From positions 1 through 61,907 of IMG/VR virus record IMGVR_UViG_3300023184_000128: a stretch of 61,907 nucleotides of DNA; one strand, given 5' to 3'. Position numbers and translations under genes: made by a program. Each line of letters starts with the position of its first letter. The stretch's first letter is position 1. Shown here one piece after another: positions 10,268 to 50,698 of this stretch. The notes below the pieces were generated by a model. It was not told where the DNA came from. It ran no database searches and saw only the letters and a list, made by a program, of their open reading frames with translations. This stretch comes from a virus.

Positions 10268-11200
10268 ATGACTAATAACTTAAACAAAGTATCGGCCAAA
10301 GACTATTTAACTACAATTAGAGATAATTTAGTTGAACAATTAGAAAAAAATTCAAATAACTGGCATAAATCTTTTATCAATAAGAATATGCCAGTCAATG
10401 CCGTGACTGGTAAACATTATAACAGCACGAATTTTTTTAATTTAAACTGGGTAGCCAATAGTAATAATTATGCTCAAAATATCTGGGCATCTTTTTTAGA
10501 CTGGAAAAAAATCGGTTGTAAAATTAAAACTGGAGAAACACACAAGGCCAAAGTTTTATATTATGGCTCATTTATTAAAGAGAATGAAAAAACAAAAAAA
10601 GATGAGACAATCGCATTTTTAAAAGCAACGCCAGTTTTTAACATTGCTCAAGTTGATTTGTCGGAATGTAAATTAAAATTTGATAATACGGACAATGTAA
10701 ACAAAGTTGTATCTATTCAAGAAATAGATAATTTTGTTAATGATACTGGGGTTGAAATTAAACACAGTAGTGACGGCCGTTGTTATTATGCAAAAACAAC
10801 TGATTATATTCATATGACAAACAAAGAGAATTTTGTTAAAACTGAATATGCCAATGAGACAAATAACTATTATTCCGTGTTATTTCACGAATTAATACAC
10901 TCAACTGGCCACGCTCAAAGGCTTGACCGCTTTAAAGATAATGACAAAAAATTTAAAGACGACGCTCAACAGTCTTATGCCTTTGAGGAATTGATTGCGG
11001 AATGTGGGTCTATAATGCTGTGTCAACAGTTTAACTTAGAAAAAACAATTAGAGTTGACCACGCTCTATATATTAAAAGTTGGATATCAGCTTTAAAAAA
11101 TGACGTAAAATTTTTAACATCGTCATTAACACGGGCATATAAAGCAACTGATTATTTACTTAAAAAAATAAAAAAAGTTGAATTAAAGGCGGTTGCTTAA
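10268..11200 (+). CDS. ArdC-type antirestriction protein / metallopeptidase
   Basis: This 310-residue protein has the ArdC layout: an N-terminal ssDNA-binding-like domain (about 10-125; TGKHYNSTNFFNLNW, FLDWKKIGCKIKTGE, FLKATPVFNIAQ) and a C-terminal zinc metallopeptidase-like domain with FHELIHSTGH (about 207-215) and a downstream FEELIAECGS acidic motif. ArdC proteins from plasmids protect incoming DNA from restriction, and the phage version probably does so early. The leader ACTAACAAAGGTAAA precedes it. It ends 1 base before the next gene. Confidence 0.85.
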   Translation: MTNNLNKVSAKDYLTTIRDNLVEQLEKNSNNWHKSFINKNMPVNAVTGKHYNSTNFFNLNWVANSNNYAQNIWASFLDWKKIGCKIKTGETHKAKVLYYGSFIKENEKTKKDETIAFLKATPVFNIAQVDLSECKLKFDNTDNVNKVVSIQEIDNFVNDTGVEIKHSSDGRCYYAKTTDYIHMTNKENFVKTEYANETNNYYSVLFHELIHSTGHAQRLDRFKDNDKKFKDDAQQSYAFEELIAECGSIMLCQQFNLEKTIRVDHALYIKSWISALKNDVKFLTSSLTRAYKATDYLLKKIKKVELKAVA

Positions 11201-11201
11201 T

Positions 11202-11909
11202 ATGGAATATAAACCGCAAAAAAGACTATTAGGCATTAATAACATTAAAATGCTTAAAAGTATAAAACTAGGTTATTTGACCGCAATTTTGCATTTAGCC
11301 CCGCACAAGTTAAGCGGGGTTAACATATGCCCTAAGGCGTCACAAGGTTGTGCTATGGCTTGTTTAAATACAAGCGGTAGAGGTCGATTTGAATTTACTC
11401 AAAAAAGCCGTTTAAATAAAACTTATTACTTTTTAAAAGACCGCCAAAAATTTTTATTACAACTTGATAATGAAATAAAAAACTTTAAAAAAAGAGCAAT
11501 TAAACAAGGTTTAAAACTTGCTATACGTTTAAATGGTACTAGTGATTTAATCTGGGAGAGATATCCAGTAAGGGACAATAAAAATATTATGGAATTAAAC
11601 CCAGATATAATATTTTATGATTATACAAAAATTAAAAATAGATTAAATGATAAGTTGCCTAAAAATTATTATTTAACATTTAGTAAGTCGGAAAGTAATG
11701 ACGACGAAATAAAAGATTTATTAACAACAGCTTTTAATATAGCGGTTGTTTTTAAAGATAAGCTACCTAAAACTTATCTAGGCCGTAAAGTAATTGACGG
11801 TGATATAAGTGACCTAAGATTTTTGGATAAAAAAGGGTCAATAGTAGGCTTAGCAACTAAGGGCAATGCAAAAACCGATAATACGGGGTTTGTAGTAAAT
11901 GTAAACTAA
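11202..11909 (+). CDS. GP88-family phage protein (cysteine cluster)
   Basis: The ATG at 11202 gives 235 residues, preferred over an upstream TTG because AAAGGCGG lies in ribosome-binding position. It has LSGVNICPKASQGCAMACLN (Cys 43, 50 and 54), then GRGRFEFTQKSRLNKTYYF, LAIRLNGTSDLIWE and FYDYTK, the pattern of the GP88 family of phage proteins of unknown function. The Cys cluster and the barrel-like strand pattern suggest a metal- or Fe-S-binding enzyme, but no reaction is known to me. It follows ArdC closely. Confidence 0.7.
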   Translation: MEYKPQKRLLGINNIKMLKSIKLGYLTAILHLAPHKLSGVNICPKASQGCAMACLNTSGRGRFEFTQKSRLNKTYYFLKDRQKFLLQLDNEIKNFKKRAIKQGLKLAIRLNGTSDLIWERYPVRDNKNIMELNPDIIFYDYTKIKNRLNDKLPKNYYLTFSKSESNDDEIKDLLTTAFNIAVVFKDKLPKTYLGRKVIDGDISDLRFLDKKGSIVGLATKGNAKTDNTGFVVNVN

Positions 11910-26109: not shown

Positions 26110-27748
26110 TTTGTTTCTCCTGTAAATATTTAAAGTAATCTTCCCCTATTGGATAGTTGTACTTATGATCAGAACTTAATAAATGTAATGAACATTTAGC
26201 TCTTGTCACTGCAACATAAACTACTCTTTTTTCGTCCATTTTTTCCTGTACTGTTTTGTTTTGATATTGAGAAGCATAATCAGCTTTGAAATAGACTAAA
26301 ACATTATCAGCTTCTCCTCCTTTTACAGAATGTACAGTATCTATAATCATATTAGGCTCTTTGCTTAATTGATCTTCTCCGTACTTCTCTAATAGAATAT
26401 TTATATAAGTTACTTCTGTGGGTGTGATATTTCTTTTTAAAACATGAAACCATTCTTGTCCTACAAGTTCATCTTTTATAGTTAAACCGCACCATGCTTT
26501 TAAATCTTCAAAAGAATATTCATTAAATTTATCTTGTTCATCCCAAAATTCTTTCTTTCTATATAATTCTTTAGCTAGATATCTAGTGTATTTATAAAAG
26601 TTTTGTGCTTCTTCTTTATTTATCTTTTCTCCATTACATAATCTTTTCCAAGTTTTAATAGCTTTCCATTTGTTATTTGTAAAAGATTTATTACCTTTGT
26701 TATCCATAAAGTATAAACCTTTATTCTTTGCCATCATTCTAAGTTCATTAACAGTTGCACTAATTCTTCCTAATAAATACCAACTTCCTTTATATTCATC
26801 AAAATCAACATCAAAAAATGATCTGTAGGCTTTTACACTATCTTTAATATCAGGGTTTGGTAGATATTCTTTTTCTTCACTATCTATAATGGACTTTCTT
26901 ATTACTTGAGAAAATTTATATATCTCTTTTCCAAAACGTCTTGTTTGAGATAAAACTCTTTTTTCTCCTGGAAAATACTTTGTAAAATATCTATGATCTG
27001 ATCCATTCCATCTATAAATAGCTTGGTCATCATCTCCTGCTAAATATACTTTATTTGCATTTTGAGCCATCTTATAAACTACTGACCATTGTAATGGTGT
27101 AAAATCTTGTGCTTCATCTAATATTAAAACTTCTAATGGTGGAAAATTAACTTCATCAATGGAACGTTCAATCATATCGGTGAAGTCCATGTATTTAGTT
27201 TCTCCTTCTTTTTTATATGCATTATAAGCATCAATTTTTCTTAATAGTAAATGTAAAGATTCTCTTTTATAGGTCTCATTACGATAAACTTCTTCAACAG
27301 GCTGCATCATATTTCTAGCTTTATCATAAATATGTAATGACCAATCTTTATAAACAAATGAATCATCGTCTAATCTAGAATCAGAACTTTTTATAATTTT
27401 ACTTTCTAAAGCAAAATCAATCATACATCTTTGTGGATCAAAGACTTCTTGAGTAAAGTATTTCTTACAATACTTATGTAACGTTTTAAATCTTTGAAAA
27501 TCTTTCATACTATATTGTGGAAATGTTTTTAAAACTCTATCTATTGCTGTGTTAACAGCTTTATTTGTAAAAGATATGAAAGCTATATCTTGTGGCAAAA
27601 TACCTTCAGCTAAATGTTTAGTAAGTATTTCTTGAACTAATGTATTAGTTTTTCCAGTTCCTGGCGGCCCATAAAACTTAATAGTTTTACTTCTAATACT
27701 ATTAGATCTGTTTAGGTTCTCTAAATTGTTGTGCATGATATTCATCAT
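26102..27748 (-). CDS. UvrD/Rep-like superfamily 1 DNA helicase
   Basis: A 548-residue protein with motif I GPPGTGKT (about 27-34), motif Ia ISFTNKAVNTA, motif II ILDEAQD (about 210-215), motif III YLAGDDDQAIYRWNG, motif V-like TVHSVKGGEADNVLV and motif VI YVAVTRAKCSLHLL. These define a 3'-5' SF1A helicase of the UvrD group. It is likely the replicative or recombination helicase, since no DnaB-type gene is visible. It overlaps the primase gene by 47 bases, so the two are probably made together. Confidence 0.92.
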   Translation of the reverse strand: MMNIMHNNLENLNRSNSIRSKTIKFYGPPGTGKTNTLVQEILTKHLAEGILPQDIAFISFTNKAVNTAIDRVLKTFPQYSMKDFQRFKTLHKYCKKYFTQEVFDPQRCMIDFALESKIIKSSDSRLDDDSFVYKDWSLHIYDKARNMMQPVEEVYRNETYKRESLHLLLRKIDAYNAYKKEGETKYMDFTDMIERSIDEVNFPPLEVLILDEAQDFTPLQWSVVYKMAQNANKVYLAGDDDQAIYRWNGSDHRYFTKYFPGEKRVLSQTRRFGKEIYKFSQVIRKSIIDSEEKEYLPNPDIKDSVKAYRSFFDVDFDEYKGSWYLLGRISATVNELRMMAKNKGLYFMDNKGNKSFTNNKWKAIKTWKRLCNGEKINKEEAQNFYKYTRYLAKELYRKKEFWDEQDKFNEYSFEDLKAWCGLTIKDELVGQEWFHVLKRNITPTEVTYINILLEKYGEDQLSKEPNMIIDTVHSVKGGEADNVLVYFKADYASQYQNKTVQEKMDEKRVVYVAVTRAKCSLHLLSSDHKYNYPIGEDYFKYLQEKQND

Positions 27749-29291
27749 CTAGTTCAGTTAATGTAGCTTGTTTTGTTGATTCTTTTTTAGTTTCTGTTTC
27801 TTTTTTGCTTTTAAAATCTGGTAATTCCATCTTCCATAAGTTTTTTTGATTTTTGTGATAATCTATTTTTACACACTGCATTGCTTGTAATGCTTCTTGT
27901 GAGTTTGCGAATAATTTATTTGATGATCTCTTAACAAATTCATCTAATGTACTTTTCTTAAAATATATAAAATCTTTATTATCTATTTCTTCTCTAACCA
28001 AATAATTATTTTTAAGTTGATCAAAGTCATCTACTATTAAATGTGTTTCAAAGAATTTCTTTTTAAATGAGAATACAGTATCTTCTAATGTATCTTCATA
28101 TTTAGCATCTGTATTTTCTTTAGCTTTATCAAATAAACCTTGAACTAACATTTCAAAAGGATTAGGTCCTTTTTTAGGTTTAGGTAATGTCATCCAATTT
28201 ATAGAATAGATTAACATCTTTTTTCTAAATGATTTTTCGTCAATTAAATCATCATCGGTTTTAAATATCATATTTGTTCCTTTATATTTAAATTCAATAA
28301 AAGTTTCTTTTACATTTCTTGTAACAACTACATCTTCAAATTCATCTATGATATCTGGAACCTGACAACCGATTCCAAGTTTTCTCATTTGGCATAATTG
28401 TTTATTACAAATAGGTATCATATGAGGATATCTTGGTGGGCATTTATAGTTATAACTTTTCTTTGCAGTTGATTTAGCAACACTACCTAATATTTCTTTT
28501 TCAGTTAAAGGTTTAGTAAATATTGCCTGATTTCTTTCTAATAAGGTACTTACTAAAGTTTTTTTATCTATATTGCCGTCTGATTTTTTCATTTCAAGAA
28601 CAGCCATATTAAACATAATGTCGTTTCTATTATCTCCAGCCCATTTATCTGTAAGTAAATTTTGTATACACGGTGGATATTCGTTCCAATCTAATTCTGG
28701 TTCATATTTTTTAGTTTTAAAATTTATTAAATCATCAAATGATAATCTTTTTTTAAATGCTAATTCTATAAATTGTTCTAAATCTAATCCTTCTCCTCTA
28801 TCGTCATATGCATATTCAACTGTTCTTGCCTCTTTGTGATAAGGCATTCCTAAATGTTTATTACGAGGAAATACTTCTTTTGCTAAAAAATAACTTTCAT
28901 TCCATTTATCTAAAATTTCTCTAACTTTTTTTTCATCAGACCAATCTGTTAAAAATAAAATTAAATGTAGTCCCCCTGATTTTGATCTAAGAGGTACAAG
29001 TGGAAGACTATTTTGTTTAATAATTTCTATAAATTTCTTTGCATTAAAATCTTTATAACTACCAGGGTCCATATCAATACAACCCCATTTTGTTTTACCA
29101 TTTATTTCTGGTTTAATTCCAATAATAGTTTCTCCGTCTAAATGTTTTTTCCAAAGCTCCGCCGTTACTGGCTTATAGACAGTTACATATTTAGCTTGCC
29201 TCTTACCTCGCTCATCAAGGTCACCCGTTAAGGTGACCTCAATGTGCTGATTAGAATCGCCTTCAAACAGTTCTAATAGCTTTGTTTCCAT
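27702..29291 (-). CDS. Archaeo-eukaryotic-type primase / PrimPol-like protein
   Basis: A 529-residue protein with an AEP-like catalytic core: WGCIDMDPGS (Asp73, Asp75, metal binding) and LRSKSGGLHLIL (Ser/His motif, His109). Next come YPPCIQNLLTDKWAGDNRND, a helical region like primase C-terminal domains, and a four-Cys cluster (Cys284, 295, 300 and 309, CPPRYP..PIC.K..C) that could bind zinc or an Fe-S cluster. It makes RNA or DNA primers. No DnaG/Toprim gene is present. A charged tail of about 200 residues is of unknown role. Confidence 0.8.
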   Translation of the reverse strand: METKLLELFEGDSNQHIEVTLTGDLDERGKRQAKYVTVYKPVTAELWKKHLDGETIIGIKPEINGKTKWGCIDMDPGSYKDFNAKKFIEIIKQNSLPLVPLRSKSGGLHLILFLTDWSDEKKVREILDKWNESYFLAKEVFPRNKHLGMPYHKEARTVEYAYDDRGEGLDLEQFIELAFKKRLSFDDLINFKTKKYEPELDWNEYPPCIQNLLTDKWAGDNRNDIMFNMAVLEMKKSDGNIDKKTLVSTLLERNQAIFTKPLTEKEILGSVAKSTAKKSYNYKCPPRYPHMIPICNKQLCQMRKLGIGCQVPDIIDEFEDVVVTRNVKETFIEFKYKGTNMIFKTDDDLIDEKSFRKKMLIYSINWMTLPKPKKGPNPFEMLVQGLFDKAKENTDAKYEDTLEDTVFSFKKKFFETHLIVDDFDQLKNNYLVREEIDNKDFIYFKKSTLDEFVKRSSNKLFANSQEALQAMQCVKIDYHKNQKNLWKMELPDFKSKKETETKKESTKQATLTELDDEYHAQQFREPKQI

Positions 29292-39698: not shown

Positions 39699-40526
39699 TT
39701 AGCTCTTAGCAATATCAGAGCTATTAACTTCTACATCATTATTGATTGTTTTTCCCTCTATTTGTGTAGAGGTTTCTGTCTTTTTGAATTCATCTAAAAG
39801 TCTTCCTGTGTAACTATGTTCTCCATGATGAGATATATATTCATCTACTAATGCATACATTTTAATACCAGCATGTTTACATAATTTACAGAAATAAAAA
39901 TCTTCTCCAGTATATGTTTTATCTTCTTTATTCCAATAAGTGTCAAAGAAGTTATACATATAGTTTCTTTTAACTAATTTACCATCAATCAAAGTATGTT
40001 GATTAATTGTAAATTCTGGATATTCTTTAATTAATTTATTAATTACTTCTTTTTTAATTAACATACATCCAGCAGGTCCTCTTTCTACTTCTATAAAACC
40101 ATTAGTAACTTTAACATTAGATGGATCTGGAACAGCCATTGTATATTGATTACCTAATAATAATGGATCTAAAGTATCTCCAGCTAATATTCTTGCTTTC
40201 ATTTTATTAGAATCCATTCCTTTAATAGGATAAGGAACAAGACAAATTTCTTTGTCAAAATTAATCATTCTTTCAATCATCTTAAAATTAAAAGATATAT
40301 CCGAATCTATAAATAGCATATGTGTACAATCTGATTCCATAAATCCAGATACACATAATTGTCTTCCTTGTGTTACCAAACTACTTTTCATAACTTGGAA
40401 CATTACAGGTATTTTTCTAACAAAACATTCTTTTTGAAATTCAAGACATGCTTTGAAATAATGAATAGATACATCCGAATGAACGGGCGTTGCTACAAAT
40501 ATACGAAACGGTTGTTTATACCCCAT
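39699..40526 (-). CDS. GT-A-type glycosyltransferase
   Basis: A 275-residue protein. RIFVATPVHSDVSIHYFKAC, SSLVTQGRQLCVSGFMESDC and MLFIDSDISFNFKMIERMIN place the metal-binding DSD near residues 74-76; then VEVERGPAGCMLIKKEV and a TGEDFYFCKLCKHAGIKMYA acceptor/catalytic region. This is like Anp1/GT2 glycosyltransferases. Its partner, a GT-B enzyme, overlaps the start by 11 bases. They may modify virion or host surface glycans; acceptor unknown. Confidence 0.75.
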   Translation of the reverse strand: MGYKQPFRIFVATPVHSDVSIHYFKACLEFQKECFVRKIPVMFQVMKSSLVTQGRQLCVSGFMESDCTHMLFIDSDISFNFKMIERMINFDKEICLVPYPIKGMDSNKMKARILAGDTLDPLLLGNQYTMAVPDPSNVKVTNGFIEVERGPAGCMLIKKEVINKLIKEYPEFTINQHTLIDGKLVKRNYMYNFFDTYWNKEDKTYTGEDFYFCKLCKHAGIKMYALVDEYISHHGEHSYTGRLLDEFKKTETSTQIEGKTINNDVEVNSSDIAKS

Positions 40527-41430
40527 TTAAAAAATTCTCCCAATATGTCTTTATTACATTCCAATGATAAAACTGTCTATAGTATTGTTGTTGAAGTTTC
40601 ATTTTATTTTCATCTGCATTCTTTAACATATCTGGTAATTGATTAATGGTATCTGCAAATTGAGTAGCTAATAACTTTCTACTATTTTGATGAGGAATAT
40701 AAATTGGAAATTCAGCACAAGTTTCATATAAAGCACCGAGGTCCGTGGTCACTACAACAAGGCCCGCTGCTAACGATTCCATAGCCGCTACACAGAAAGT
40801 TTCTTCAAATGTAGATGGATGAACATAACAATCATAAATATGAAGTACTTTCATCAATTCTTTATGATGCAAATAGCCTTTATAATTTACATTTTTTATT
40901 GTTTTTGCTTTATCATACAAAGCCACAAATTTATCATCATTATATTTCTTAAACTGATCTCCATAGATTTGCGTACTTGAATAAATGTCTAATTCAACTT
41001 TATCTGTTTTAATTTGTTCCATCGCATCTAGGAGCACGTCTAATCCACGCCAAGGAGTTGAAGTATAAACTAATTTTATTTTATCTTTTATTTTAAAATC
41101 TTTCTTTATTATTAAATCATCATCAAAACCATTTTTAATAATTAAACATAGTTCTGTAGGAATACTAAAGAAATATCTATATTTTTCATAAGTCCAATGA
41201 GAATTAAATACATACCAATCATATTTACCGTGGTTTAATTTATTTTTAAACCAAGGCATTACATTGGGTTGATCATAACTATTATGTACCCAAAGTATAT
41301 TAGTTTTATCTATAACTATTTTTTCTTTTTCTGGAACAGAAGTTGTTATTTTAGCTTTGTTAAGTAATTCTGGTGATACGTATTTATGTAGATATTCTAC
41401 TTGTATTTCAGTTCCGCCGTATGGATTCAT
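40516..41430 (-). CDS. GT4-type (GT-B) glycosyltransferase
   Basis: A 304-residue protein with N-terminal GGTE (nucleotide-side start), INKF-like middle with KLVYTSTPWRGLDVLLDAME, KNVNYKGYLHHKELMKVLHI, and VHPSTFEETFCVAAMESLAA with GLVVVTTDLGALYE. The E-x7-E segment is the donor-binding motif of GT4. It is somewhat short in the N-terminal domain. The pair with the GT-A gene is independent of the epimerase cluster at 0.5-2.9 kb but both lie in the late region. Confidence 0.85.
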   Translation of the reverse strand: MNPYGGTEIQVEYLHKYVSPELLNKAKITTSVPEKEKIVIDKTNILWVHNSYDQPNVMPWFKNKLNHGKYDWYVFNSHWTYEKYRYFFSIPTELCLIIKNGFDDDLIIKKDFKIKDKIKLVYTSTPWRGLDVLLDAMEQIKTDKVELDIYSSTQIYGDQFKKYNDDKFVALYDKAKTIKNVNYKGYLHHKELMKVLHIYDCYVHPSTFEETFCVAAMESLAAGLVVVTTDLGALYETCAEFPIYIPHQNSRKLLATQFADTINQLPDMLKNADENKMKLQQQYYRQFYHWNVIKTYWENFLNGV

Positions 41431-43716: not shown

Positions 43717-45672
43717 TTAATTTTGTGGTGAACTTCCACCCATTCCATCTGGTTGGATATCTACTCTAAATATTCCGTATCTCCAGTTATCATTTAAGGC
43801 ACTATTTTCTATTTTAATAGATGCTAATCTTGCTCTAGCACGAGTATCTACCTTATCAGTAGATGTAGTTATTGTAAATGGTCCAATAGAAGTTTCTCCT
43901 TTTGCAGTTGTAGTGTCTGCTGGATATGCTCTTAAATATAATGTTACATTCGCAGATCCTTCTAAATTTTTAAAGTCTGGTATAAATCTTCTAATCTTTA
44001 AGAAGTATTGTCCATCTCCATCTGCATCCAAATCAAAGTCTCCAGATCTAACATAAGCAGATATAGCTAAATTAGTTATATTAGTAGTTGTTAAATTTAA
44101 CACTTCATTTTTACCTTTGTCTTGTGCAAAGTAATAAGAAGCTCCAGCCGATACTCCATTAATAGTTGGTACTGTTGGTGTTGCTGTTGAATCATATTTA
44201 GTTGCATATGGAAATTTAAATACTTTAGAATCTTCCCAAGTGGTTCTAGATAAAGAACCTGTAGTCCAAGTATTATCTGCATAATTAAGAGTGGTTACTC
44301 TATCAATTTGTGTAGATCCTGCTTTTGGATAAAACCAGCTTATTTCAGTAAAGAGTGTATTTAATCCAGCATAAACAATATCTCCTGCTGCAAAATTAAT
44401 GCCTAAATTATCGGTTCCTTTTGTAGTAAATACAAAATCTTCAACTAAAGAATCAACATCTTTAACTGTACCATCATACATATTAAATCCACCAGAATCT
44501 CCCATCCACCAAACTGCTCCGTTGACGAACGCCATAGCATGTTGACCAATGCATCCACAATTAGAACCTACTTTTCTAATACTAAATGTATAAGGAGTTC
44601 CAACGTATTGAATACTATAAGCTGCAGTATCTGTTAAAACTAATATATAATCTTTTGCTCTTACGGCTCCAATAATAGTTGTTCCATCATCTAATCTAAA
44701 TGTACCTGCCGTATTCGTAGATGTTGGTTCATAAACTTCTATATCTTCTTGATCAGAAAATCTTATAAACATTGGATCTTGAGAGGAAGATACTCCAATA
44801 ACTGTTTCTGTTCCTAAATGTAATAGATGTCTATCCCTATCAGATACAATAGTCATAATAGAAGCTGTTGGGTTATTTGGAACTAATGATGCTCTGGTAT
44901 TTACTCCTGTTCCTGCACTTGGATTCCATTTAAATGTATTTCCATTTTTAATGGTAGCTATTAGTAATTCTCCAAAATTATCTAAAGACCAGTTACCAGC
45001 TTCAATAGTTGCATTAGAAGTTGTTCTAGGTGTTCCCCAATAAGATTTTCCCCATGGACCTGCTCCCCAACCATAACCAACTGTAGAAGTTAATGGTCCA
45101 ATAATATAATAAGGACTTATTGCTAAAGTTCCTCCAGCAGTTACTCCTGTACCAGTCTCAGTAACTGGCATTGTAATTGTAAATGTATTTATAGTAGGAG
45201 CAGTCTTAACTTCAAATGCATTTGTTGTAAAATCTGATGATGTAAAACTAGTTGTTGGACTACCAGGTGTTGTTGCAGCTGTAAAAATAAATAATTCGCC
45301 AGGAAGTAAACCATGACTTGATTTGGTTATAGTAACCGTTTTAGATCCTGTTGTAGATGTATAAGTACATGCTGTTAAATTTCTTGAAGTATCTAAAGGT
45401 GTAATATCATATATTGAATCGGCATCATAAACATATAAACACTTATTGGTACCAAGAGCTGCATAACGTCTACCAGTCAAATCAGTCCATGACCATTGAC
45501 ACCTAACTGCTCCTACCATTAATTTATCAGTGAGTTGTTCCCATCCACCTATTTTTTCAGGAGAACCATAACGAAAACGAACATTATCTCCATCAATCCA
45601 TTGGCCTTCAGCTTGTGAAGCCGTTGCTTGTTTGTTAAAGCCTGGCTGTAAAGGTATTTTTTTTAATGGCAT
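43717..45672 (-). CDS. P22 gp10-like packaged-DNA stabilisation / tail hub protein
   Basis: A 651-residue protein. The N terminus, IPLQPGFNKQATASQAEGQW then IDGDNVRFRYGSPEKIGGWE, is highly typical of P22 gp10-like proteins, followed by a beta-propeller-like region (RDRHLLHLGTETVIGVSSSQ, WWMGDSGGFNMYDGTVKDVD) and a C-terminal strand-rich part. Six copies join gp4 to the tail needle or fibre and plug the head. It confirms the P22-like tail design. There is no recognisable gp26 needle gene. Confidence 0.9.
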   Translation of the reverse strand: MPLKKIPLQPGFNKQATASQAEGQWIDGDNVRFRYGSPEKIGGWEQLTDKLMVGAVRCQWSWTDLTGRRYAALGTNKCLYVYDADSIYDITPLDTSRNLTACTYTSTTGSKTVTITKSSHGLLPGELFIFTAATTPGSPTTSFTSSDFTTNAFEVKTAPTINTFTITMPVTETGTGVTAGGTLAISPYYIIGPLTSTVGYGWGAGPWGKSYWGTPRTTSNATIEAGNWSLDNFGELLIATIKNGNTFKWNPSAGTGVNTRASLVPNNPTASIMTIVSDRDRHLLHLGTETVIGVSSSQDPMFIRFSDQEDIEVYEPTSTNTAGTFRLDDGTTIIGAVRAKDYILVLTDTAAYSIQYVGTPYTFSIRKVGSNCGCIGQHAMAFVNGAVWWMGDSGGFNMYDGTVKDVDSLVEDFVFTTKGTDNLGINFAAGDIVYAGLNTLFTEISWFYPKAGSTQIDRVTTLNYADNTWTTGSLSRTTWEDSKVFKFPYATKYDSTATPTVPTINGVSAGASYYFAQDKGKNEVLNLTTTNITNLAISAYVRSGDFDLDADGDGQYFLKIRRFIPDFKNLEGSANVTLYLRAYPADTTTAKGETSIGPFTITTSTDKVDTRARARLASIKIENSALNDNWRYGIFRVDIQPDGMGGSSPQN

Positions 45673-45774: not shown

Positions 45775-46362
45775 TTAATAAAATTTAACATTTATTTGTT
45801 TATCTAATGTATGTTCTTTTTGCACTAAATCAAAATCTATATTAAATGATATAATTGTTTTTCTTATATCTGTTAAATTTTTTTGAGAACGATGGATAAA
45901 ATATGAAGGAAAAGTTATTATGTCCCCTTCTTCTACATCAATAGTAAAACATTTATTTAAATCATTTGGAAATAAGAATTCTGTCCTAGGCGAATTTTTA
46001 TTAAATTCTAAATAATATACTCCAGTATAATTAGATCCATGAATATGCCAATTATGAATATCTCCTTTATTGTATTGTTGATACCATAATTCTCTTAATA
46101 AAATTCTATCACAACCAATTATTTTTGAAAAATTATTTAATTGTTCAAAAAAATGATTAATTATTAATTTAACCCAAGGTCTTTCAAAATTTTTTGCTAA
46201 ATCCCAATCTAATTTTGATATATCATCATTCATATTATTTGTATGATCATTTAAACCATTATCTTTAGTTTCATGTATTAATTTTAATAATTGTTCTTTA
46301 AAATTTTCATGATATTTAAATTTTTCTTTTAAAATTAAAGATGGTATTTCAATTTTTTTCAT
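45775..46362 (-). CDS. 2OG-Fe(II) oxygenase-like protein 1
   Basis: A 195-residue protein of the double-stranded beta-helix type. DIHNWHIHGSNYTGVYYLEF holds a His106-x-His108 pair (usually His-x-Asp), GDIITFPSYFIHRSQ holds the distal His157, and R167 in TDIRKTIISFNID would bind 2-oxoglutarate. The pattern is that of a putative 2OG-Fe(II) oxygenase family seen in marine phages. It hydroxylates an unknown substrate. Last of a five-gene oxygenase/DUF6065 cassette. Confidence 0.7.
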   Translation of the reverse strand: MKKIEIPSLILKEKFKYHENFKEQLLKLIHETKDNGLNDHTNNMNDDISKLDWDLAKNFERPWVKLIINHFFEQLNNFSKIIGCDRILLRELWYQQYNKGDIHNWHIHGSNYTGVYYLEFNKNSPRTEFLFPNDLNKCFTIDVEEGDIITFPSYFIHRSQKNLTDIRKTIISFNIDFDLVQKEHTLDKQINVKFY

Positions 46363-46577
46363 TTTCCATTTATTTCAGTATCTTCAAATGTTTCTTTATT
46401 AGATATTTTTTGATTAAATTTTATATTCCAATCTGCAACTATTCTTACAAGATTATTTCCAAAATGCCTTAGATTTTCATCTGATAAATGTAATTTTCCT
46501 TTTTCATTTAATATTTTTATTTCTTCTTTAGAAAATTCTATATCACAAGATCCGTTCTCATATTGTATAAATCTCAT
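46359..46577 (-). CDS. Small protein within oxygenase cassette
   Basis: A 72-residue protein: strands MRFIQYENGSCDIEFSKEEI, then helix LSDENLRHFGNNLVRIVADW and a short Thr/Glu-rich tail. It overlaps both neighbouring oxygenase genes by 4 bases, so it is expressed with them. The I-x-F-S-x-E-E-I start suggests a small winged domain. It may be an accessory subunit; no family recognised. Confidence 0.6.
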   Translation of the reverse strand: MRFIQYENGSCDIEFSKEEIKILNEKGKLHLSDENLRHFGNNLVRIVADWNIKFNQKISNKETFEDTEINGK

Positions 46578-47119
46578 TTTTGAACTCCATATGTTAATCT
46601 TTTATCTTTAAACCATTCTTTGTTAAATCCATTCTTATCTACGTAATGTAAAAAAGTTTGTGCATGCCAATCTCCTTTAAATTCTTCTCTCCAGTGTTCA
46701 ACCTCACATCCCAAATATATTGCAGCATCTCCAGGTTCCATGTTTATTTCTTTTCCATCCATATATATTGGCCATTGAGTTCCATCAGAACCAATCATTA
46801 CAGTAACACTTATTTCACAAGAAGATCTATCTTTATGTTTTTTTAAATCTGCAAACATTGTATACATTCTCCAAAAAGCGTAGGTGGGTAATAATTCTAA
46901 ACCAGTTTCTTTTTGCATTAATTCTAATTTATTAACCATTAATGATTCCATCAATGCATCTCCATAGAAAAAAGTATCCCCATTATTATTTTGTCTAAAA
47001 TCAAACGAATCGAAATTAACTCTATGTTTTATTCTACAATAATCATTTAACAATTTAATTTCTTCTTTGGTTAAAAAATTTTTTATTAATTTATATTTAA
47101 AATCTTTTATAGTATTCAT
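46574..47119 (-). CDS. 2OG-Fe(II) oxygenase-like protein 2
   Basis: A 181-residue protein like prolyl-4-hydroxylase-type enzymes. DLKKHKDRSSCEISVTVMIG gives the His95-x-Asp97 pair, MEPGDAAIYLGCEVEHWREE gives His142 as distal ligand, and the 2OG-binding residue may lie in WHAQTFLHYV. The metal triad H-x-D...H is intact. It likely hydroxylates or demethylates a protein, sugar or nucleic-acid substrate. Adjacent to two other oxygenases. Confidence 0.8.
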   Translation of the reverse strand: MNTIKDFKYKLIKNFLTKEEIKLLNDYCRIKHRVNFDSFDFRQNNNGDTFFYGDALMESLMVNKLELMQKETGLELLPTYAFWRMYTMFADLKKHKDRSSCEISVTVMIGSDGTQWPIYMDGKEINMEPGDAAIYLGCEVEHWREEFKGDWHAQTFLHYVDKNGFNKEWFKDKRLTYGVQK

Positions 47120-47120
47120 A

Positions 47121-47633
47121 TTAAAAATAATTTATATTTATTAAAATTCTTCTTTTAGTATCTGATTGTATTAATGCACAATGTTCTATTTGTGAATCAA
47201 AAATAACCATTCTGTTTTCAATACTATCTATTTTTATTTTTTTATTTTTATCTAAAATAGTAGCACCATTATTAGTATTCATATAAAATATAGATGTAGT
47301 ACATTTAAAAGAATAATCTGTGTGAAAATATAATTTTTTAATTTTATCTTGTCTTAAAAGTAAATTTGCTCTTGATTGTATAATTGCCTTACATTTTAAT
47401 TTTTTATATATTTTATGTAAAAAATAATTAAATTGATTAAAATCATTATTAAAATCATTAAAAAAATTTAATGAAAAATATCCAATATCATCTACATCAT
47501 CTTGAGATTCTTTTATTTGGCTATTTCTATAGAACCAAGGAGTATTCTTAGTATCAAATATAATTTCTTTAAATTTAAAAAAATCTTCTTTTTCTAAAAA
47601 ATTATCTATTATTTTATAATCTAGAGTGCCCAT
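47121..47633 (-). CDS. 2OG-Fe(II) oxygenase-like protein 3
   Basis: A 170-residue protein. LYFHTDYSFKCTTSIFYMNT has the His104-x-Asp106 pair, IENRMVIFDSQIEHCALIQS the distal His151, and TKRRILININYF the Arg161/162 for 2-oxoglutarate. The fold order is complete for a short 2OG oxygenase. N-terminal MGTLDYKIIDNFLEKEDFFK is the typical lid start of phage PKHD-like enzymes. It overlaps the next gene by 13 bases. Confidence 0.8.
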   Translation of the reverse strand: MGTLDYKIIDNFLEKEDFFKFKEIIFDTKNTPWFYRNSQIKESQDDVDDIGYFSLNFFNDFNNDFNQFNYFLHKIYKKLKCKAIIQSRANLLLRQDKIKKLYFHTDYSFKCTTSIFYMNTNNGATILDKNKKIKIDSIENRMVIFDSQIEHCALIQSDTKRRILININYF

Positions 47634-48190
47634 GCTACAACTGAATATCTTATTCCTTTTATTACTGGTTTAACTGTATGTGGATATAAAAAAATACTTG
47701 GCCAAAGTATCATTCTATTTGGTTTAACTTCTACTTCCCATTCGCCACTTCCATCTGGGTTTCTAAAACAAAGATTACCACCTTCATAATCATTATTTAA
47801 TAATAATATACAACTCATTGTTCTTGGAATTTCTGCAAAATGGTCTACATGCCATGTATAAAAACCAGTATTTTCATACTTTAAAATTTCAATATCAAAA
47901 ATATCCTTATAGGCATAATCTAATATATTTAAATCAGTTTTATATTGATTTAATTTTTGATTAAAAAAATTTTTTAATAAATTAAACCAGTGTACATTAG
48001 TTAAAGAATTATTTAAATTAGATAAAGGAAGAGTATAGGTTCTCCTTATATTAAAATCAGTTTTTGTTTCATTACCACCGCCTACTTTTGTTTCCTCAAA
48101 AGTAGAATTATTTGCAAAACGAATTATATTTGATACCATGTTCCATGGTAAAACTTCATCATATATCTTTATAAAATTTTTTATTTCCAT
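47621..48190 (-). CDS. 2OG-Fe(II) oxygenase-like protein 4 (PKHD-type)
   Basis: A 189-residue protein with the clearest motifs of the set: GFYTWHVDHFAEIPRTMSCI (His114-x-Asp116), DYEGGNLCFRNPDGSGEWEV, and RMILWPSIFLYPHTVKPVIK-GIRY (His171, Arg181). This is the PKHD-type hydroxylase pattern. Its partners are probably the other three oxygenase-like genes and the DUF6065-like gene that overlaps its start by 10 bases. Substrate unknown. Confidence 0.88.
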   Translation of the reverse strand: MEIKNFIKIYDEVLPWNMVSNIIRFANNSTFEETKVGGGNETKTDFNIRRTYTLPLSNLNNSLTNVHWFNLLKNFFNQKLNQYKTDLNILDYAYKDIFDIEILKYENTGFYTWHVDHFAEIPRTMSCILLLNNDYEGGNLCFRNPDGSGEWEVEVKPNRMILWPSIFLYPHTVKPVIKGIRYSVVAWAL

Positions 48191-48936
48191 GATTTTTTAC
48201 TCCAATATTTTTCTTTATATGTATTTATTAATTTTAATCCGTAAAAAAGCCTAGAATTTTGTATTTCTTTTTGTTCTCTTTTTTTAAAAGTCATTTTCCA
48301 ACAATCTCTTTTAAAAGGTATTATTTGAACATAAGGAGTTCCTTTTTTAATAGTTGTTTCTAATACTGTATATTTGTCTCCATTAATAACTATTGGAAAA
48401 TTTATTTCCCCTGGGAAGGTATCCGTATCAACAATACCTGGAATAATAGAAAATCTATCATCTGAGTTATTTAAAGGTGATACAAATAAACAAGAATAAC
48501 CTTTTGGAGTTTTGATTTTCCAAGGATTTACTATTTTATAAAATGGTAATTTTTTATTTTTTTCAATGAGTGGAGATCCTTCTAATTGTTTTATTGGATG
48601 GATATCAATCCCAGAATTTAAATTTATCCTTTTGGCACTTAATAAATGTGATTGATCATGAAGTCCATAAGTTTGAAATGAATCTTTAAAAATTTCTCCC
48701 TTTTCATTTTTATTATCTACATTATGTTTGATATGAAAATCTTGTGGCATCTTTAACAAATAACCCGATGTTAAAGTATCTAAAAAAGGCATACATCCTT
48801 TTACTGTTCTATTTTCAATGATATGATCTAATTTTTTATACCATTCTGGTATATTTAATTTTGTAGGAATAGGATAATCTTCTTTAAGTGCAAAATAATC
48901 TTCATGGGCACTAAACTCTATTTCTTTATCAAACAT
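48181..48936 (-). CDS. DUF6065-like protein
   Basis: A 251-residue protein. YPIPTKLNIPEWYKKLDHII, RTVKGCMPFLDTLTSGYLLK, SCLFVSPLNNSDDRFSIIPG-IVDTDTF, INFPIVINGDKY and KGTPYVQIIPFKRDCWKM are in the order of the DUF6065 group as I remember it. The strand-rich fold and the conserved V-D-T-D-T-F and I-P-F-K-R residues suggest a cupin-like enzyme or scaffold. It is first of the oxygenase cassette and may be their substrate carrier or partner. Confidence 0.7.
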   Translation of the reverse strand: MFDKEIEFSAHEDYFALKEDYPIPTKLNIPEWYKKLDHIIENRTVKGCMPFLDTLTSGYLLKMPQDFHIKHNVDNKNEKGEIFKDSFQTYGLHDQSHLLSAKRINLNSGIDIHPIKQLEGSPLIEKNKKLPFYKIVNPWKIKTPKGYSCLFVSPLNNSDDRFSIIPGIVDTDTFPGEINFPIVINGDKYTVLETTIKKGTPYVQIIPFKRDCWKMTFKKREQKEIQNSRLFYGLKLINTYKEKYWSKKSWK

Positions 48937-48955: not shown

Positions 48956-49411
48956 TTAAGGTAATTGTAAAGGATTATAAGAGGGTTGGCCTAAATTATA
49001 GAAATATTGTTCTAAAGATACATTTAAAGGTAAAGGTATAGATGATGTATCTAAATTAGATAATTGATTATAATAATTATTCCATCTTGAATACAAAAGA
49101 CTGTTTTTATTATTATCTAAAAAACATTTAATAAGGTTTTTAAAATTACTGATATATTTATCTATAGTATATTGATTATCTGCAAAAAGAGTAGATTCAA
49201 TATTTACATATATAATAGCATCATTTTGATAACCTGTAATACTTTTTGTACCATATTTGACTGCATTAAAATTTTCTTGTGTGTCTTGTATAATTTTGTA
49301 AGTGGATAAATTAGTTATGTTAAGATTATCTAAATCATATTGATTTTCTGCAATTCTATAAAGTGTTCCAGAAATATTATTTTGATTATTTTCAAAAATA
49401 AAAAAAGCCAT
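48956..49411 (-). CDS. Tail-fibre-adjacent unknown protein
   Basis: A 151-residue protein: FIFENNQNNISGTLYRIAEN, QDTQENFNAVKYGTKSITGY and a helical, Asn/Leu/Tyr-rich C-terminal half. It lies immediately after the tail-fibre gene, the position of fibre assembly or capping proteins. No chaperone domain could be named. Similar Asn-rich proteins sit beside fibre genes in other marine phages. Confidence 0.55.
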   Translation of the reverse strand: MAFFIFENNQNNISGTLYRIAENQYDLDNLNITNLSTYKIIQDTQENFNAVKYGTKSITGYQNDAIIYVNIESTLFADNQYTIDKYISNFKNLIKCFLDNNKNSLLYSRWNNYYNQLSNLDTSSIPLPLNVSLEQYFYNLGQPSYNPLQLP

Positions 49412-49414
49412 ATT

Positions 49415-50698
49415 TTATGTACCAGAATTTTCAAAAACAACTATTGCACCAGGATTTCCTGGACTTCCAAACCAATTACTTGTATTACCACCATCATTTC
49501 CCCCACTACCACCACTACCACCACTAAATCCTGTTACAAAACCTTTAGACGGTGCATTAAAATTGGATAAAGGAGCCGTTCCTGCATTACCTGGATTACC
49601 TGGAGCAGTATTAGGACCTCTATTTCCACCATTACCACCATTAGCAGTTAGATTAGTTGCAATAGTACTAGCACCTCCTGCACTTCCTCCAGAAAAACCA
49701 CCAGGTCCTCCACCACCGCCGCCTCCAACTGAGTAAGGAACTGCATATGGTCGAGTTATAGGGACGTTAAAATAACCATATCCACCTGGTCCACCAGCAC
49801 CACCACTTATTCCACTACCTGATGTTCCACCTCCTCCACCACCTGCTCCGTAAATATAAAGAGCTAATCTATTTGTATTATTTCCAGCTGTATATGTACC
49901 TGAAGTTGGTCCAGTGTACCATTGAGTTGGAACAAATCCTCCAGCTCCTGCTGATCCAGAAGATGCAGCTGTAATTCTACCTTGAGCATCAACAGTAATT
50001 GATGCAGCTGTGTATGATCCTGCAGTAACTGCAGTATTTGCTAATTGAGTTGGTCCTACAGCTGCTGCTGCAATTTTAACTGATGTAACTGATGCTGTAT
50101 CTAACGCACCTGATGTAACTGCAAATGATGCAATCTTAAATGATGTAACTGCGGATGTGTCTAATCCTGAAGATGTAACAGCAAAAGATGCAACTTTAAA
50201 TGATGTAACTGCTGCTGTATCTAATGCACTAGCTGTAACAATAGAGTTTGCTAATGCTGTACTAGTGTTAATTGATCCACCTAATGTACTAAGATCAATT
50301 ACGTTTGCATTTGTTCCATTTAAATAAACTTGTTTAATATTTTTTTCTGCTGTTCCCCAAATGACAGAAGCTCCACCAACTTGATTTAATGCTAATGTAA
50401 ATGCACCTGTTGTACTATTTTTAATTGTGTATGTTTTTTCAATTCCACTTTCAACATATACTGTTGAGTTTGCTGCTAATACTCCTGTAAATTCTAAAAC
50501 AGCATTTCTTGCATCTGAAATAGTAGCATTTGTCATAGACAAAGTAGTGTTTGTAGATGTAAGTGCTATAGCTTGATAACCAACAACTGCTTGTTGTAAT
50601 AGATTTAAATTTGTATTTGTTTTATCACCCCATGTTCCAGAGTTTTCCCCTGTTACCATTAGCTCAAGTTTGAGGTCTGTAGAATAACTAGATGCCAT
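49415..50698 (-). CDS. Tail fibre with glycine-rich receptor-binding tip
   Basis: A 427-residue protein. MASSYSTDLKLELMVTGENS-GTWGDKTNTNLNLLQQAV is the common phage fibre N terminus. Pseudo-repeats FKVASFAVTSSGLDTSAVTS, FKIASFAVTSGALDTASVTS (about 168-215) form the shaft. The C-terminal third is extremely glycine-rich (GAGGGGGG, GGGGGGGPGG, NGGNGGNRGP), like the polyglycine-II-helix adhesin tips of T4-like phages that bind outer-membrane proteins. It probably decides host range. No collar or chaperone domain is visible. Confidence 0.8.
   Translation of the reverse strand: MASSYSTDLKLELMVTGENSGTWGDKTNTNLNLLQQAVVGYQAIALTSTNTTLSMTNATISDARNAVLEFTGVLAANSTVYVESGIEKTYTIKNSTTGAFTLALNQVGGASVIWGTAEKNIKQVYLNGTNANVIDLSTLGGSINTSTALANSIVTASALDTAAVTSFKVASFAVTSSGLDTSAVTSFKIASFAVTSGALDTASVTSVKIAAAAVGPTQLANTAVTAGSYTAASITVDAQGRITAASSGSAGAGGFVPTQWYTGPTSGTYTAGNNTNRLALYIYGAGGGGGGTSGSGISGGAGGPGGYGYFNVPITRPYAVPYSVGGGGGGGPGGFSGGSAGGASTIATNLTANGGNGGNRGPNTAPGNPGNAGTAPLSNFNAPSKGFVTGFSGGSGGSGGNDGGNTSNWFGSPGNPGAIVVFENSGT

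Follow-up and report, generated by a model that had tools for sequence, protein, structure and literature searches.

The presence of four 2-oxoglutarate (2OG)-Fe(II) oxygenase-like genes among the tail genes of a virus raises the question of what their products might modify. The genes lie at positions 45775-48936 of a 61.9-kb virus record with phage structural genes (IMG/VR record IMGVR_UViG_3300023184_000128; its full 61,907 nucleotides are referred to here as the window), together with a small gene and one resembling DUF6065, and a first-pass annotation had suggested that they hydroxylate one substrate in several steps. The actual unit extends beyond this six-gene stretch, and we favor, with a probability of about 0.5, a modular cassette linked to the tail fibre whose enzymes would hydroxylate and then decorate the fibre tip. 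A Megablast search returned a single distant phage relative, Pelagibacter phage HTVC023P, aligned over one 1.2-kb stretch at 75% identity, and the tail protein designated P9 in the window is 55% identical to that of HTVC023P; the window phage is apparently an ocean phage related to phages of SAR11 bacteria.

Organization of the locus

The six open reading frames noted initially (P1 to P6) were all recovered on the minus strand, where they overlap or closely abut. With their flanking genes they are transcribed in the order P8, P7, P6, P5, P4, P3, P2, P1, P9, and neighbors from P8 to P9 overlap or nearly touch, which is compatible with one transcript. The features, in order of transcription and with sizes in amino acids (aa), are the following:

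49415..50698, minus strand: P8, tail fibre of 427 aa with a Gly-rich C-terminal tip, the proposed substrate (PHROG tail families 416/863/892; PF21722 just below cut-off)
48956..49411, minus strand: P7, fibre-adjacent protein of 151 aa, possible fibre chaperone (from size and position only)
48181..48936, minus strand: P6, DUF6065-related protein with a dUTPase-like beta-clip in its C-terminal half, optional frame gene (phrog_7084, 1.3e-46)
47621..48190, minus strand: P5, predicted 2OG-Fe(II) oxygenase, frame gene (PF13640, 2.8e-16; phrog_61; invariant motif)
47121..47633, minus strand: P4, predicted 2OG-Fe(II) oxygenase occupying slot A, the P5/P3 interval (phrog_274, 8.2e-37; invariant motif)
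46574..47119, minus strand: P3, prolyl-4-hydroxylase-fold protein, the 'ferrochelatase' of phage annotation, frame gene (phrog_2954, 6.4e-47; fold)
46359..46577, minus strand: P2, conserved protein of 72 aa, frame gene (conserved position)
45775..46362, minus strand: P1, 2OG-Fe(II) oxygenase-like protein occupying slot C, the P2/P9 interval (PF13759, 1.7e-9; H-x-H...H)
43717..45672, minus strand: P9, structural tail protein of the stabilization type, bordering the cassette downstream (phrog_3287, 6.8e-83)

Gly makes up 32.5% of the last 160 aa of P8, and homologs of P9 in other phages carry the annotation 'stabilization protein'. The guanine-plus-cytosine (GC) content is 34-39% in the fibre gene and P9, 25-27% in P6, P5 and P3, 19.9% in P1 and 17.7% in P4; positions 45775-48936 form a trough of 18-27% between the flanking structural genes, with the minimum in the slot genes.

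A fixed frame with exchangeable slots

The block is shared by hundreds of relatives. The first sample consisted of 162 marine viral contigs carrying P6, of which 136 possess all of P6, P5, P3 and P9. The order P6-P5-P3-P9 was constant in 136/136 contigs, and hence the arrangement is not due to chance; P2 was located between P3 and P9 in 130 of the 136. Further genes occupied three places: (i) slot A, between P5 and P3, (ii) slot B, between P3 and P2, and (iii) slot C, between P2 and P9. Each slot held from 0 to 7 extra genes, amounting to 305 when three genes between P6 and P5 are included. These genes fell into 87 fine clusters; 151 matched oxygenase profiles and 49 more were recognized by motif only. 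Slots A and C of the window are occupied by P4 and P1, respectively, and P6, P5, P3 and P2 belong to the frame.

Decorating enzymes of other kinds were found in the same slots, with at least one in 53/136 contigs. The slot genes beyond the oxygenases recognized by profile or motif include O-carbamoyltransferases, present in 38/136 contigs (the N-terminal halves of split carbamoyltransferases being counted as 'other' among the slot genes), glycosyltransferases (18), QueC-like proteins (6), sulfotransferases (4), JmjC_2 proteins (3), Trp halogenases (2) and a CmcI-type O-methyltransferase (1). The best slot matches had E-values of 5.7e-96 for the Trp halogenase, 4.6e-57 for the carbamoyltransferase (PF16861), 5e-13 for the CmcI-type O-methyltransferase, 2.6e-12 for the glycosyltransferase, 1.3e-10 for JmjC_2 and 2.2e-9 for the sulfotransferase. 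A sulfotransferase, a P-loop kinase and a nucleotidyltransferase were present together in 12/14 sulfotransferase contigs, the latter two being fused in phrog_10255, and these two probably make 3'-phosphoadenosine-5'-phosphosulfate (PAPS) as partners of the first; the set is possibly a minimal phage pathway to PAPS. A sulfotransferase with a small P-loop kinase and a 115-aa nucleotidyltransferase, the kinase preceding the nucleotidyltransferase, is represented by L143:5854-6574, L099:7565-8715 and L062:6841-7197. The whole cassette, in the form P8-P7-P6-P5-P3-P2-P4-P9, was also seen on a 5.3-kb phage fragment within a Maricaulis metagenome-assembled genome (L200, contig NZMJ01000157.1), which could be a prophage, a captured virus or the product of mis-binning.

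This organization lends no support to the initial proposal of several hydroxylation steps on one substrate. The presence of one accessory oxygenase is independent of that of another, a pattern that separate sites or alternative decorations fit better than ordered steps. Moreover, relatives use these slots for Trp halogenases and for transferases of the carbamoyl, sulfo, glycosyl and methyl types as well, so that hydroxylation followed by decoration provides the better frame for interpreting the locus.

The oxygenases P5, P4 and P1

P5 and P1 pass the Pfam cut-offs of two different 2OG-Fe(II) oxygenase families. P5 scored 60.7 bits against PF13640 (cut-off 27; E 2.8e-16), and alignment of its family showed H114, D116, H171 and R181 to be invariant. 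P1 scored 38.4 bits against PF13759 (cut-off 27; E 1.7e-9); an exact-peptide scan found few close relatives of it, and within its family H106-x-H108 and H157 are kept in 115/119 sequences, with an Arg or Lys approximately 11 residues further in most. The H-x-H that had been pointed out in this gene is thus the norm of its family. P4 fell below the Pfam cut-off (PF13640, 20.6 bits versus 27; E 9e-4); H104, D106, H151 and R162 are invariant in the 16 sequences of its family, and a profile-profile comparison matched it to the P5 family with an E-value of 1.3e-5. PHROG 274, to which P4 belongs, is labeled 'DNA endonuclease V', a label that also occurs in GenBank (Mosig_00058, 023Pt_psg01). We rejected this identity for P4, as the family members in our data have an intact 2OG oxygenase motif. 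Together with P3, which was assigned by fold, P5, P4 and P1 are divergent 2OG-Fe(II) oxygenase-like proteins with predicted enzyme activity, and the first-pass annotation was correct in recognizing four real genes of this type that are not close copies.

P3 has a prolyl-4-hydroxylase fold

P3 matched neither an oxygenase nor a ferrochelatase family in Pfam, and its profile gave no match to PDB sequences. Since hhalign comparison with the P5 and P4 profiles aligned an N-terminal segment alone, the class assignment of P3 rests on its fold. An AlphaFold model based on a 58-sequence alignment had a predicted local distance difference test (pLDDT) score of 96.0 and a predicted template modeling (pTM) score of 0.91. 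In a Foldseek search, the best PDB match of this model was the prolyl-4-hydroxylase of Pseudomonas putida (4j25; E 8.9e-9, probability 1.00) and 416 matches were obtained at E<=1e-3; human PHD2 was also found, and the closest solved relatives include 4iw3, the P. putida prolyl hydroxylase with its substrate EF-Tu. The alignment contains a conserved metal triad, H95, D97 and H142, and no conserved Arg or Lys to anchor 2OG approximately 9-12 residues past the distal His, in place of which R98, R144, Q154 and H158 are conserved. Structure prediction, which had been suggested as a check of active-site integrity, therefore gave the prolyl-hydroxylase fold with its HxD...H triad but not the usual Arg anchor; the earlier remark that this gene lacks a clear Arg holds, with neither Arg nor Lys about 10 residues past the distal His. 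The model thus indicates a prolyl-4-hydroxylase-fold protein with a non-canonical 2OG anchor, a predicted hydroxylase.

There are 156 phage records that match P3, many of them annotated as ferrochelatase, and the PHROG label is the same. Given the fold shared with prolyl-4-hydroxylase and PHD2 and the conserved H95, D97 and H142, ferrochelatase activity is very unlikely, and in view of the missing family match this candidate was rejected. The labels of phrog_2954 and phrog_3531 hence sit on a prolyl-hydroxylase-fold family, represented by positions 46574-47119 and the 156 public records. P3 and P5 are fused into one 427-aa protein in cyanophage S-SCSM2R, and phrog_3531 resembles such a fusion, its N-terminal part matching P3 and its C-terminal part P5.

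The identity of P3 bears on a metabolic role, according to which the genes would handle 2-oxoglutarate, iron or haem, or take part in DNA repair. Roles of this kind have been suggested for cyanophages and pelagiphages (PMC3037559; PMC9599517), and infection by HTVC027P, a phage of the HTVC023P type, raises host iron-uptake genes (PMC12753301), an effect that fits Fe-dependent enzymes without being specific to them. With a prolyl-hydroxylase fold in P3 the link to haem falls, and several divergent oxygenases accompanied by transferases at one fibre locus are ill-suited to a 2OG sink or to AlkB-type repair; we regard a metabolic role as very improbable.

Linkage to the fibre in contigs selected by P9

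A second sample was made up of contigs picked by P9 alone, 65 of which have at least 4.5 kb upstream. Oxygenases were situated beside the fibre in 55/65, mostly three or four and up to nine per contig. Taken with the fixed gene order in the first sample, this bears out the early suggestion that the oxygenases are linked non-randomly to one another and to the tail-fibre locus. P5 and P3 were both present in 47 of these contigs and both absent from 15, with P5 alone in three and thus in 50 overall (Fisher p 4e-12, uncorrected for kinship). Because both were kept in 47/65 contigs while P6 occurred in 10/65, the P5-P3 pair is what stays invariant across the wider lineage, and P6, P7 and P2 go with one particular fibre architecture. 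A Gly-rich tip protein was detected in 46/55 contigs with oxygenases versus 2/10 without (Fisher p 1.6e-4, likewise uncorrected for kinship), an association that is just suggestive because the oxygenase-free contigs represent few lineages. Of the kinds of carbamoyl-, sulfo- and glycosyltransferases and halogenases that were looked for, none was found in these ten contigs. Among cassette contigs of the P6-based sample, the fibre preceding P6 had more than 20% Gly in its last 160 aa in 137/143.

Median aa identity to the window genes was 84% for P3, 79% for P6 and 77% for P5, as compared with 60% for P9 and 51% for the fibre, the value for P6 being inflated by the P6-based retrieval of contigs and those for P3 and P5 less affected. 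At 4-fold sites, identity was approximately 45-57% in all five genes (48% in P3). The high aa identity relative to the 4-fold sites shows that the frame enzymes are under strong purifying selection and were not acquired by recent transfer.

These results allow the locus to be weighed as a mere recombination hotspot, in which diverse morons pile up after the fibre and share no substrate. The very low GC of P1 and P4 would agree with this, as would the high turnover reflected in the 87 fine clusters and the fact that slot content follows P9 no less than the fibre. The contents of the slots are non-random, however, consisting mostly of one enzyme superfamily and of hydroxyl-directed transferases, and the invariant order, the strong purifying selection on the frame, and the co-occurrence of P5 and P3 and their fusion elsewhere all tell against a hotspot, which we consider distinctly unlikely.

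It is also conceivable that the enzymes act on a host target, such as a translation factor, a ribosomal protein or an envelope component, and thereby aid infection or block superinfection, the position beside the fibre reflecting late expression only. Modification of a host protein is a serious rival because the nearest structural relative of P3 acts on EF-Tu and because the frame is so conserved, P6 and P3 exceeding the fibre and P9 in identity as would be expected for an invariant target. Conversely, the fast turnover of slot enzymes points to a diversifying target, the fibre linkage is maintained across two different tip architectures, and the association with Gly-rich tips would be left unexplained. 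On balance, a host target seems to us unlikely, with more to recommend it than a hotspot.

P6, P7 and P2

P6 had been described as DUF6065-like. The window protein itself stays below the cut-off of PF19541 (12.3 bits versus 26.6), whereas homologs from a halovirus (L004, 35.7 bits) and from Dongia (L203, 29.8 bits) pass it, so the relationship stands by way of relatives; P6 is approximately 30% identical to the haloviral homologs. Its alignment has no HxD..H oxygenase motif, and its profile found no match among PDB sequences. Foldseek aligned the P6 model (pLDDT 90.9) to dUTPases with an E-value of 5e-3, over some 80 columns confined to the C-terminal half (root-mean-square deviation 2.3; TM by query ~0.22-0.34). 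Judged by eye, the alignment does not contain the five dUTPase catalytic motifs; the stretches GIVDTD and KKGTPYVQ resemble motifs 3 and 4, and a C-terminal Gly-rich motif 5 is absent. From the modeled fold, one might guess at a binding or adaptor role. An open-access literature search found no mention of DUF6065.

Relatives of P6 (L004:7902-8771; L201-L211, L216) are present in many haloarchaeal tailed viruses, adjoining a thymidylate synthase and a DNA polymerase in HSTV-2, and are solitary in alphaproteobacterial chromosomes; DUF6065 therefore exists outside the cassette, without oxygenase partners in haloviruses and in most bacterial loci seen. Occurring in 10/65 P9-selected contigs, as opposed to 50 for P5 and 47 for P3, it was rejected as an obligatory partner of the oxygenases.

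DNA hypermodification can involve carbamoyl- and glycosyltransferases, and the oxygenases could by analogy hydroxylate bases that are then carbamoylated or glycosylated. The dUTPase-like fold of P6 and the thymidylate synthase next to its halovirus relative lend themselves to this idea, and some clades of the HTVC023P type are known to carry genes for thymidine hypermodification, which adjoin the DNA polymerase and not the fibre (PMC9599517). Neither the C5-methylase family PF00145 nor the thymidylate synthase family PF00303 was found in the window record, which may be incomplete, with positive controls. In addition, the best matches are not TET/JBP proteins, and a sulfotransferase and a Trp halogenase are ill-fitting for bases. 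DNA as the substrate is, in our estimation, barely credible.

P7 directly precedes P6 in 151/159 contigs and has no weighty Pfam or PHROG match; from its size and position it is possibly a fibre chaperone. P2, which matches no Pfam or PHROG family, invites comparison with the precursor of a ribosomally synthesized and post-translationally modified peptide (RiPP), to be tailored by the oxygenases, halogenase and transferases: it is small, its position is conserved (130/136), and the enzyme set of the cassette resembles the tailoring sets of peptide natural products. Yet among 58 P9-selected contigs that extend more than 2 kb upstream, P2 lies upstream of P9 in 10, as against 41 for P3, on which ground it was rejected as a universal substrate. 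Its alignment is without a leader/core pattern, and neither a protease nor an exporter was seen beside it in the cassette. A RiPP-like pathway is accordingly rated highly unlikely.

Proposed role of the cassette

Our preferred interpretation remains modification of the fibre tip, which is backed by the linkage of the genes, the chemistry of the enzymes and the association with Gly-rich tips. Late in infection, the Gly-rich fibre P8 would be made along with P7 and the frame enzymes, and P5 and P3, the latter probably prolyl-hydroxylase-like, would add hydroxyl groups to side chains in the fibre tip, either ahead of assembly or in its course. The swappable slot enzymes, P4 and P1 in the window, would hydroxylate additional sites. 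In relatives, the hydroxyls so produced could serve as acceptors that slot transferases cap with carbamoyl, sulfate, methyl or sugar, and the Trp halogenase may modify aromatic side chains; Trp halogenase and sulfotransferase both suit protein side chains. The outcome would be a chemically varied receptor-binding surface on an unchanged fibre sequence, with a possible benefit for host range, adsorption or stability. More tentatively, and at somewhat less than even odds, this may amount to a combinatorial decoration of the receptor-binding fibre, in which an invariant oxygenase pair works with swapped hydroxylases, transferases and halogenases on a Gly-rich tip and host recognition shifts by gain and loss of enzymes besides mutation of the fibre.

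Several observations weigh against this interpretation. The evidence for the fibre as substrate is indirect, such that the virion-protein substrate proposed at first pass is plausible and unproven. P3 is without the canonical 2OG-binding Arg, and its relatives in cyanophages can lie away from tail genes, as in P-SSM7, where one is found between replication genes. The Gly-rich association ignores relatedness. Some oxygenase contigs have no detected Gly-rich tip, and some have no fibre in the contig. Four contigs (L254, L269, L272, L288) carry other large adhesin-like proteins that are not Gly-rich, followed by oxygenases, and the oxygenase link is therefore to fibre loci in general. Finally, a partial Mantel test of slot content versus fibre distance, controlled for the frame, gave r 0.16 (p 0.002), which is not taken as proof of the fibre because it is no stronger than the P9 control (0.145, p 0.003).

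The proposal nonetheless offers one testable hypothesis for the 2OG oxygenases, 'ferrochelatases', carbamoyltransferases and Trp halogenases of marine phages, all of which are found in one fibre-linked cassette; it removes the haem reading of the 'ferrochelatase' and suggests chemical variation of the phage receptor-binding surface.

Other genes of the window

The phage has its own sugar genes besides the cassette: an NAD epimerase/GDP-mannose-dehydratase-like gene with a methyltransferase at 1362-2920, and a separate group-1 glycosyltransferase at 40516-41430. Positions 10268-11909 encode an anti-restriction protein of the ArdC-like kind, which combines ArdcN with a PolyVal metallopeptidase, and next to it a GP88 protein that follows. 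Positions 27702-29291 gave a weak match to the archaeo-eukaryotic primase domain of TOTE systems and adjoin genes for Pam3 gp33/gp34-like proteins.

Comparison with known systems

A search of the open-access literature, subscription papers lying outside it, found nothing on point concerning hydroxylation of phage tail fibres or such enzyme sets, and no description of the slots, of the transferases in them or of their link to the fibre. These three aspects appear to be new; the co-location of oxygenases and 'ferrochelatases' was already reported in 2022.

DUF6065 (PF19541) is tied to fibre and oxygenases in marine phages only. The slot carbamoyltransferases, of about 496 aa or split into 309 and 181 aa, match the C-terminal domain of TobZ/CmcH-type O-carbamoyltransferases (PF16861/PF02543; 4.6e-57, 4.6e-55), from which they differ in being located at a phage fibre locus, in relatives and not in the window itself. 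P3 shares its fold and HxD...H triad with prolyl 4-hydroxylases such as PPHD of P. putida and human EGLN/PHD2, and deviates from them in the 2OG anchor and in the lack of a PDB sequence match. EGLN3-like proteins and folds are widespread in marine phages (PMC12774648), and surveys of cyanophages (PMC3037559) include, among genes of sporadic occurrence, 2OG oxygenases, prnA, a carbamoyltransferase and a protein with a 'ferrochelatase domain'.

Similar oxygenase arrays near tail genes are found in Mosig, HTVC008M, HTVC033P and HTVC023P. In each of the Pelagibacter phages HTVC008M and Mosig, four oxygenases adjoin a P3 relative in the vicinity of tail or neck genes, with a P4-type gene in Mosig and a Trp halogenase nearby in HTVC008M; the two phages differ in having myovirus-type genomes and other neighbors, and no DUF6065-related gene in the regions examined. 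In HTVC027P, which has a tail-collar fibre, the equivalent place between the fibre/collar and P9 holds three opposite-strand genes, one of them for a 2OG oxygenase (L360:7292-8953). The closest likeness is to the HTVC023P-type pelagiphages, which represent the same lineage with the same pairing of 2OG oxygenases and P3-type proteins: eight non-orthologous 2OG oxygenases co-located with ferrochelatases were described in their genomes and read as iron/haem partners (PMC9599517). The terms carbamoyl, sulfotransferase, halogenase and tail fiber are absent from that text, and the partner that it read as a ferrochelatase has, in our model of P3, the fold of a prolyl hydroxylase.

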